This document shows, one piece after another, positions 60,401-62,762 of a DNA stretch of 64,000 nucleotides. A program made the translations under genes and the position numbers. How positions within the stretch are numbered: position 1 is the stretch's first letter; each line of letters opens with the position of its first letter. The DNA comes from Hellea sp. (GTDB lineage: Bacteria > Pseudomonadota > Alphaproteobacteria > Caulobacterales > Maricaulaceae), in the NCBI GenBank assembly GCA_014238285.1, contig JABABK010000011.1, forward strand, positions 1 through 64,000. The letters are read 5' to 3'. Below the pieces are notes generated by a model that saw only the letters and a program-made list of their open reading frames with translations, was not told the origin of the DNA and made no database searches.

Positions 60401-60747
60401 CGGTTTTCCCTTTAAAACTTATCTGCGCCCCAGATTGGGGTATTCGCCAATAAGGGGAGCAATTGCCGTGCCAAGATCCTCAGGGGTTGTTCCCCCCATA
60501 GACGAAGGTATTTGGGGCTTTGCGGGTGCTTTTCAGGGGAGTCGTGACCGATAATAGGCCGAATTAACCAATCCATGTATCAAAACAGGACAAATTCGCG
60601 CCAAGCAAACGTCAGTTAAGTTTCATTCGTTAGGTTTTGAAGGGGTCAGGAAATCGCCCAACATATTCCATATAGAGTTTGTCCTGATGAATTCAGGTTC
60701 CTTCCCTATACTTGGTCCTAGTCTCTACGTCTTTTTCTTTGCGCTGT
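60401..60747. other. 347-base gap upstream of the XRE gene
   Basis: No ORF or RNA gene is convincing here. A CAGGACAAA/TTTGTCCTG inverted pair (around 60586 and 60679) and a GCCCCAGATTGGGG stem near the XRE start are visible; their meaning is unknown. The promoter of the XRE gene should lie here. Confidence 0.5.
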
Positions 60748-61227
60748 TTAAATCAGCGTTAGGCGCTGGCTATTTATAGGAAATGCCGCGGAGGTTTTCA
60801 TATTGCTCATCAAGAATATCGTTTCCATCGATACGATATGCGGAACTTTTCCCAGTTCGTTTGTGAGTATTCTTTCATAATCTTCAAAGTCTTTGGCATA
60901 GATATGGGCTACAAAATCAATTTTTCCGGTTGTCATGTAACATGCCGTAATTGATCGTAAACCTTTAAAGGCTTGAGTTATTTCATCCCACGCTTCACGC
61001 GTATGGTTGCCCGTTTTTAATAATACGAGAGCAGACATTGTAAACCCAAGTGTAGATGGGTCAATGACGGCGCTATATCCGGATATCACACCTGATTTCT
61101 CTAGCTTTTTTACACGGTTCTGGCAGGCGGTGGCGGATAAATTAACGCACTCAGCAAGATCTAGATTTGAAATCCGGCCTCTTTGTTGAAGCGTATCGAG
61201 TATTTTTCTATCAATTTTATCTAGCAT
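60748..61227 (-). CDS. Lrp/AsnC family regulator
   Basis: The 159-residue regulator has the N-terminal AsnC winged helix (MLDKIDRKILDTLQQRGRIS, then LSATACQNRVKKLEKSGVI) and a C-terminal RAM ligand domain with HIYAKDFEDYERIL. ATG 61227 is chosen because AAGG stands seven bases upstream and homologues start with this helix; the upstream extension looks non-coding. It probably senses an amino acid. No transporter or target operon is adjacent; the gap upstream holds the two sRNA-like copies. Confidence 0.93.
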   Translation of the reverse strand: MLDKIDRKILDTLQQRGRISNLDLAECVNLSATACQNRVKKLEKSGVISGYSAVIDPSTLGFTMSALVLLKTGNHTREAWDEITQAFKGLRSITACYMTTGKIDFVAHIYAKDFEDYERILTNELGKVPHIVSMETIFLMSNMKTSAAFPINSQRLTLI

Positions 61228-61320
61228 AATTTTACCTTGAATTTGAATGAATAAGATATATTCACTAAATAAGTGCAATATTACAGTGAATTTTAATATA
61301 TAAAACCATATTCCATGGGC

Positions 61321-61495
61321 AAATAAAGTGACATTATCAAGCACGATAAGTTATAGTGTTGGTGCTAGGAAGCTTGAGCTCTTTGTCGCCTCCTAATAGA
61401 GGCATTCTTAAGACGAGTGGTTTAGGGTTTCTGGCATTTTTTCAACAATTATGACGTTGTCGTCGCCCCCTTCCCTTAAGGGGGGTGACGGTTCT
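61321..61495 (+). ncRNA. Candidate small RNA gene, copy A of a tandem pair
   Basis: The copy has a sigma70-like promoter (GTGACA 61328-61333, 18-base spacer, TATAGT 61352-61357) and then two hairpins: GCCTC/GAGGC with a CCTAATA loop (61388-61403) and a long GC-rich stem (61461-61490). CTGGCATTTTTT (61431-61442) is a conserved U-rich block. No ORF is present. Transcription would begin near 61364. Copy B lies 357 bases downstream with matching promoter, hairpins and U block. Confidence 0.45.
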
Positions 61496-61677
61496 TATCA
61501 TGAGTATCTTATTGTCTTGACGGCCTCTGGCGCTTGATGAACGTCAAAATTCTTTTACCATGTGTCTTTGTAAAATGAGATGATTCAGTGGGGGTATTAA
61601 TTTCGAAGGAAGTGAGATGTCCTCGATATCTAATATATTGGAGTGAAAATGATTAGATAAACCACAGAATATTGGAT

Positions 61678-61852
61678 AAATAAAAATGATATTTTTCAAT
61701 ACGGCGCACTATAGTGTCTGCGCTAGGATGTTCTTGCCTTTTGCCGTCTCTTAAAAGAGATTTTTCGAGACTAGAGGTTTGGGCTTACTGGCATTTTTTA
61801 ACGATTATGACATTGTCGCCACCCTTACCTTAAAAGGGGTGGCGGTTATTCC
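61678..61852 (+). ncRNA. Candidate small RNA gene, copy B of a tandem pair
   Basis: The parallel copy shows ATGATA (61686-61691), the same 18-base spacer, TATAGT (61710-61715), a TCTCTT/AAGAGA hairpin (61747-61760), CTGGCATTTTTT (61788-61799) and a long stem (61817-61844). Hairpin arms differ from copy A while pairing is kept. Transcription would begin near 61722. It precedes the amidohydrolase gene by 29 bases on the opposite strand. Confidence 0.45.
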
Positions 61853-61880
61853 GTGTACTTCTTAGTATTTAAAGGAGGCT

Positions 61881-62762
61881 TTACTCAGCGGCTAACGGAA
61901 GCTCACGTCGTTCAGGCAACATGTCCCAGCAAATAGACTTCATATCATCAGCGAGACGAGCATATTCGGTCTTGCGCATCATTGTGACGGGGTTGAGGTA
62001 GAGGTCTCGGTTTATTTCGATCTGGATAACTTCCATATTACGCTCGGGGCGGCCGTAGTGCGAGGTCACATATCCACCTGCATAGGGGTAGTTGCGCGCT
62101 ACGCTGTAACCTTTGGCGGTGAAGAGGGCTTCTAGCCGTGCCAAGGTTTCAGGATAACAAGATGTCCCGTGGCGATCACCCAATACAATGTCCGGTCGTC
62201 TTTGTCCCATTTGGGTAAAGCCCGGCATGGAGTGACAGTCTAGCAGGAGCGCCTGTCCGAAAGTTTTTATGGCATCCGTGATAAGCTGTATTAATGCATC
62301 ATGATAGGGACGGTATAAATGTTCCAGCCTGTCATCGACACAGCTGGCTTTGAGCTGACGTTTATAAATAGGCACTTTATCGGCGATAATGGTCGGAATT
62401 ACGCCCAGGCCCATTTCGGCCCGCGCCGTAGAGGGCAGATCGCCCGGTTTTTTCCAACTCATGGGCACTTCATCTACGGCGCGGTTGACATCCACAAAAC
62501 AGCGCGGAAAGCGTGCGGTCAAAAGCGGGATATCCATATGGCGGGCAAAGCCCAGCATATCATCGATATAAGCATCTTCGTTTTGGCGTAGGGTTTTAAG
62601 GTCCAGGGCAGAGCGGTCGATCAGAGCTTGAGGGTAGACACGCCCTGAATGAGGCGAGGCGAGAATCAGTGGGCCGCACGGAACGACAGGCCGGTCGATG
62701 GTAATAGGCGGGTCAAAGACTTGCAGGCACTCTACCTCTTGACTTTTTTGCCGGCGGATCAT
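61881..62762 (-). CDS. N-formylglutamate amidohydrolase family protein
   Basis: The 293-residue zinc hydrolase family acts on N-formylglutamate in histidine breakdown, though some members have other substrates. Signs are LILASPHSGRVYPQAL near residue 30, EDAYIDDM, FVDVNRA with the conserved Asp-Val-Asn-Arg, LLLDCHSMPG near residue 180 and QIEINRDLYLNPVTM. ATG 62762 is preferred; an earlier start at 62831 adds a random-looking leader. It is divergent from cpdR, the usual alphaproteobacterial order. No other hut genes are in the window. Confidence 0.88.
   Translation of the reverse strand: MIRRQKSQEVECLQVFDPPITIDRPVVPCGPLILASPHSGRVYPQALIDRSALDLKTLRQNEDAYIDDMLGFARHMDIPLLTARFPRCFVDVNRAVDEVPMSWKKPGDLPSTARAEMGLGVIPTIIADKVPIYKRQLKASCVDDRLEHLYRPYHDALIQLITDAIKTFGQALLLDCHSMPGFTQMGQRRPDIVLGDRHGTSCYPETLARLEALFTAKGYSVARNYPYAGGYVTSHYGRPERNMEVIQIEINRDLYLNPVTMMRKTEYARLADDMKSICWDMLPERRELPLAAE

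Follow-up and report, generated by a model that had tools for sequence, protein, structure and literature searches.

Downstream of an N-formylglutamate amidohydrolase (FGase) gene in the window, the 64,000-nt stretch of Hellea sp. DNA analyzed here, lies a tandem pair of homologous segments (copy 1 and copy 2). Copy 2 is convergent with the FGase gene, and copy 1 is divergent from a gene for an Lrp/AsnC-type regulator, on the far side of which is an element that resembles the alpha-R8 sRNAs. The features of the locus are listed in Table 1. The genome is a 168-contig assembly that is 95.6% complete. The contig may be chimeric, yet both flanks are syntenic with those of relatives.

Table 1. Position, strand and supporting evidence for each feature of the FGase locus
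Feature	Position	Strand	Evidence or remark
Decayed alpha-R8 (MmgR/SisA-type) sRNA element	60679..60740	+	R2 model, 41.8 bits, E 8e-7
Lrp/AsnC-type regulator gene	60748..61227	-	Pfam HTH_AsnC-type + AsnC_trans_reg
Copy 1, homologous block	~61277-61505		
Copy 1, promoter-like hexamers GTGACA-18-TATAGT	61328..61357	+	10/12 matches; predicted TSS 61364
Copy 1, hairpin 1 (GCUAG...CUGGC), variable 5′ domain	61364..61435	+	z -4.4 for 61364-61443
Copy 1, conserved block CTGGCATTTTTTCAACAATTATGA with U6 run and A/U-rich linker (candidate Hfq site)	61431..61454	+	23/24 identical between copies
Copy 1, final GC-rich stem (putative terminator)	61461..61490	+	z -3.5; weak T-tract
Copy 2, homologous block	~61641-61860		
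Copy 2, promoter-like hexamers ATGATA-18-TATAGT	61686..61715	+	9/12 matches; predicted TSS 61722
Copy 2, hairpin 1	61722..61792	+	z -2.8 for 61722-61800
Copy 2, conserved block CTGGCATTTTTTAACGATTATGAC	61788..61811	+	identity between copies
Copy 2, GC-rich final stem	61817..61844	+	z -3.3
FGase gene	61881..62756	-	PF05013, E 1e-68; syntenic in sister species

The alpha-R8 sRNAs (MmgR, SisA) combine a weak hairpin with the 10-mer UUUCCUCCCU and a Rho-independent terminator, and most species carry one copy, adjoining an FGase gene (PMC12559287). In six of the eight sister species that have the FGase gene, the gap between it and an XRE regulator gene holds an alpha-R8-like element downstream of the FGase gene (L005, L006, L007, L008, L009, and L010). 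In these elements, a weak hairpin (CCUGAU...AUCAGG) is followed by UUUCCUCCCC and then by a terminator stem and a T-run. Judged by its anatomy and genomic address, the sister element is an alpha-R8 element. Rfam 15 gives no report at the gathering score for four of the six (L005, L006, L009, and L010), and L009 goes unreported even at E ≤ 1.

Model R2, which was built from these six elements, gives the window element 41.8 bits versus 68–84 bits for the sister elements, whose scores are high by construction. The terminator stem of the window element is mismatched, its 10-mer reads UUCCUUCCCU instead of UUUCCUCCCU, and its fold is no better than that of shuffled sequence (z = -0.02, versus -5.4 for a sister element). 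Thus, it looks decayed. R2 found no second alpha-R8 in the genome (next match, E = 0.97). Loss at the FGase site is not unique to the window genome, since G001 (locus L004) has no alpha-R8 element in its FGase-XRE gap and no R2 match anywhere in its genome, and in G005 the R2 match is on another contig, not at the FGase site. The pattern in G001 suggests repeated loss within the genus.

Between the decayed element and the FGase stop codon are ~1.1 kb that are absent from relatives. This insert carries the Lrp/AsnC-type regulator gene and the tandem pair and is AT-rich, with a GC content of ~0.38–0.40 versus ~0.50 in the flanking genes.

The two copies are 75% identical (blastn, E = 7e-19; alignments agree). 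The earlier note had described copies of about 175 bases that lie 357 bases apart. There are indeed two copies, with a start-to-start distance of 357–358 bp, but the homology covers more than 175 bp, extending from ~80 bp upstream of the predicted transcription start site (TSS) to just past the final stem. When copy 1 was used as a blastn probe of the 3.74-Mb genome, the only matches were itself and copy 2.

The gap that contains the pair had been described as free of ORFs, and we also found no convincing ORF in it. Although small ORFs do overlap the copies, indels of 1 nt and 2 nt disrupt the frames that the copies share, and a protein-coding reading was rejected. The pair had no match in Rfam at the gathering score, and at E ≤ 5 there were chance matches alone; this negative result is weak evidence, as Rfam also misses clear alpha-R8 elements of the sister species. 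RNA duplexes between the copies and the translation-start regions of nine window genes did not exceed those of shuffled sequences.

As proposed previously, each copy carries sigma-70-like hexamers with an 18-nt spacer, in the same register. Since the region is not enriched in promoter-like sites as such (6 sites versus 4.4 expected from shuffles), the case for promoters rests on how the copies differ. Identity between them is 6/6 in the -10 box, 7/18 in the spacer, and 99/129 in the transcribed part (Fisher P = 0.0017). An identical -10 box beside a diverged spacer is what constraint, and not uniform drift, would give. With the -10 box unchanged, the spacer only 39% identical, and the CTGGCATTTTTT-AACRATTATGAC segment 96% identical, the copies look constrained.

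Stretches of ~140 nt from the two copies fold more strongly than dinucleotide shuffles (z = -6.3 for copy 1 and -3.8 for copy 2). When folding begins at the predicted TSS, both copies give a large hairpin (hairpin 1); downstream of it come A-UUUUUU, an A/U-rich linker that contains a weak hairpin of 5 bp, and the final, GC-rich stem. The base of hairpin 1 (GCUAG/CUGGC) directly precedes A-UUUUUU. The small hairpin that had been noticed in each copy does pair, although as the tip of hairpin 1 rather than as a separate structure. This tip had been said to keep its pairing while its bases differ (GCCTC/GAGGC against TCTCTT/AAGAGA), but the second of these pairings is out of register. The in-register comparison sets GCCTC/GAGGC against GTCTC/GAGAT and reveals one compensatory change and one G-U.

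Over the whole fold, 3 of the 34 consensus pairs show two-sided (compensatory) changes between the copies. When mutations were redistributed at random, this number was not significant (P = 0.07 with copy 1 as the reference, 0.26 with copy 2), nor was the retention of pairs between the copies (P = 0.13 and 0.53). On two sequences, the broader claim that bases change while pairing is kept makes a weak argument. Fold energy, on the other hand, is kept much better than in randomized copies (P = 0.008 and <0.001). Thus, the fold is conserved and the covariation argument is weak.

Conservation is uneven along the predicted RNA. The shared block recognized in the earlier note is present, with CTGGCATTTTTT identical in both copies, and CTGGCATTTTTT(C)AACRATTATGAC is identical at 23 of 24 positions, versus 45 of 66 in the other part of hairpin 1 (P = 0.006). 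Within hairpin 1, the first 7 nt alone are identical in both copies and the remainder diverges. The final GC-rich stem was also found in both copies, in a region that is 31/39 identical. The T-tract after this stem is weak; the linker before it is 96% conserved. The linker block is a candidate Hfq site, and the genome encodes Hfq (E = 4e-32).

The predicted RNA would be ~80 nt long if it ended at the U6 run that follows hairpin 1 and ~130 nt long if transcription read through the final GC hairpin. One alternative is that hairpin 1 and the U6 run make up a whole sRNA of ~79 nt with its own terminator. The GC stem would then be a separate element, for example one that backs up termination or keeps converging transcripts apart. 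In favor of this alternative, the U6 run follows a closed stem and a single A in both copies, and the closure of hairpin 1 coincides exactly with the predicted TSS. However, in copy 2 the basal stem is limited to 5 pairs and has internal loops above it, and if transcription always stopped at the U6 run there would be no obvious reason for the linker and final stem to be kept. Because these parts are conserved better than hairpin 1, we favor the ~130-nt form with a mostly single-stranded U6-AAC linker, with some RNA perhaps ending at U6, and consider the ~79-nt sRNA unlikely.

Outside the window genome, we found no relative of the pair by blastn in 10 genomes of the genus, 137 genomes of the family, or plasmids and phages. 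Covariance model R1 also detected none, whether at the level of the family (137 genomes), the order (398 genomes), or the class (385 genomes). When 84,980 species of bacteria and archaea were scanned by pattern, there were two matches, in unrelated phyla, which is about the number estimated by chance, and a scan of viral contigs gave nothing similar. As R1 was built on two sequences and the filters of the large model searches were stricter, these searches may have missed relatives that are strongly diverged. None of the weak matches (L033, L034, L035, and L039) is a convincing relative; L039 was rejected as it sits in a GTP cyclohydrolase-like reading frame.

This distribution bears on a second alternative, in which the insert is the remnant of an acquired AT-rich, lineage-specific element and the copies are repeated regulatory DNA that yields no discrete RNAs. 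The low GC content, the lack of homologs, and the absence of the insert from the same gap in sister species all fit this reading. Against it are the uneven conservation and the fold energy retained between the copies, together with the failure to find anything similar in viral contigs, phages, or plasmids or another copy in the genome. We regard this reading as decidedly unlikely. The same results, with only two copies in the genome, led us to reject a mobile element.

We estimate a probability of roughly 0.6 that the copies are two sibling sRNA genes of the Hfq type, the products of an old tandem duplication. Duplicated small RNA genes, the interpretation offered in the earlier note, best explain the conserved -10 box, the non-coding character, the stable fold, the A/U-rich linker, the GC hairpin, and the presence of an Hfq gene. 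Several results weigh against this reading: the lack of an Rfam match, the poor final T-tract, the non-enrichment of promoter-like sites, compensatory changes and pair retention that are not significant, and the finding of no target among the nine window genes. As no homolog was found in the genomes searched, it also lacks phylogenetic support.

If the copies are sibling sRNA genes, each would be transcribed rightward from its own sigma-70-type promoter, starting near the predicted TSS. The RNA would have a variable hairpin at its 5′ end to recognize targets, an A/U-rich linker that binds Hfq, and a GC-rich terminator hairpin. Such RNAs would act in trans by base pairing with mRNAs, and the siblings would differ in their targets or timing. 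We infer transcription, the RNA ends, Hfq binding, targets, and Lrp control of the pair.

The comparison with AbcR made previously is a fair analogy, but for layout only. Like the pair, AbcR1 and AbcR2 (alpha-r15, Rhizobiales) are two tandem copies with their own promoters (putative in our case) beside a regulator gene, with a 5′ hairpin and an A/U-rich stretch ahead of the terminator hairpin (PMC3712013). The regulator neighbor of the pair is of the Lrp/AsnC type, whereas in Sinorhizobium meliloti AbcR lies between ArsR- and LysR-type regulator genes (PMC3712013). There is no sequence or Rfam match, and the exposed UCCUCCC anti-Shine-Dalgarno loop that defines AbcR is not common to both copies; the CCUCCU of copy 1 lies within a stem, and copy 2 has CUCUU. 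As this loop is absent, we do not file the pair as AbcR, and at most it works like AbcR.

The sRNA family tied to the FGase locus in relatives is alpha-R8, not AbcR. The pair shares the address of alpha-R8 (MmgR, SisA-D), adjoining the FGase gene and convergent with it (PMC12559287), but has no UUUCCUCCCU 10-mer. We rejected membership of this family, as copy 1 scores 6.2 bits with R2 and copy 2 is not listed, versus the 68–84 bits of the sister elements. The enterobacterial OmrA and OmrB are likewise a single sRNA duplicated in tandem within one intergenic region. Their 5′ ends are almost identical (PMC12559287), whereas in the pair hairpin 1 diverges past its first 7 nt and is less well conserved than the linker and final stem. 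If mostly single-stranded, as we favor, the linker would be like that of Hfq-binding sRNAs.

A further possibility is that in this lineage alpha-R8, which is widely conserved in alphaproteobacteria, was lost at the FGase locus and functionally replaced in place by an acquired module in which the Lrp/AsnC regulator controls unrelated sibling sRNAs. Such a non-orthologous replacement of a conserved riboregulator strikes us as improbable. In Caulobacter, CrfA is a sponge RNA that binds alpha-R8 sRNAs. A sponge role for the copies is barely credible and was rejected: copy 1 forms duplexes of 17–21 kcal/mol with the alpha-R8 RNAs of sister species, but these are at the level of shuffled controls (z = -0.6 to -1.4; none for copy 2), and the alpha-R8 at the FGase locus of the window genome is decayed.

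If transcribed, the pair would be a new orphan sRNA family with built-in divergence between siblings, in a genus that shows an ancestral sRNA of the same locus being lost, and thus a compact case of sRNA gene birth, duplication, and swapping. If not transcribed, the pair would be an ordinary lineage-specific insert.

Copy 1, at least, is probably under the control of the Lrp/AsnC gene, a reasonable guess since a regulator gene beside the sRNA that it controls is a known arrangement. Between this gene and copy 1, at 61228–61303, are two 27-nt direct repeats, 49 bp apart and 78% alike, as well as overlapping dyads. This segment is a possible regulator-binding region.
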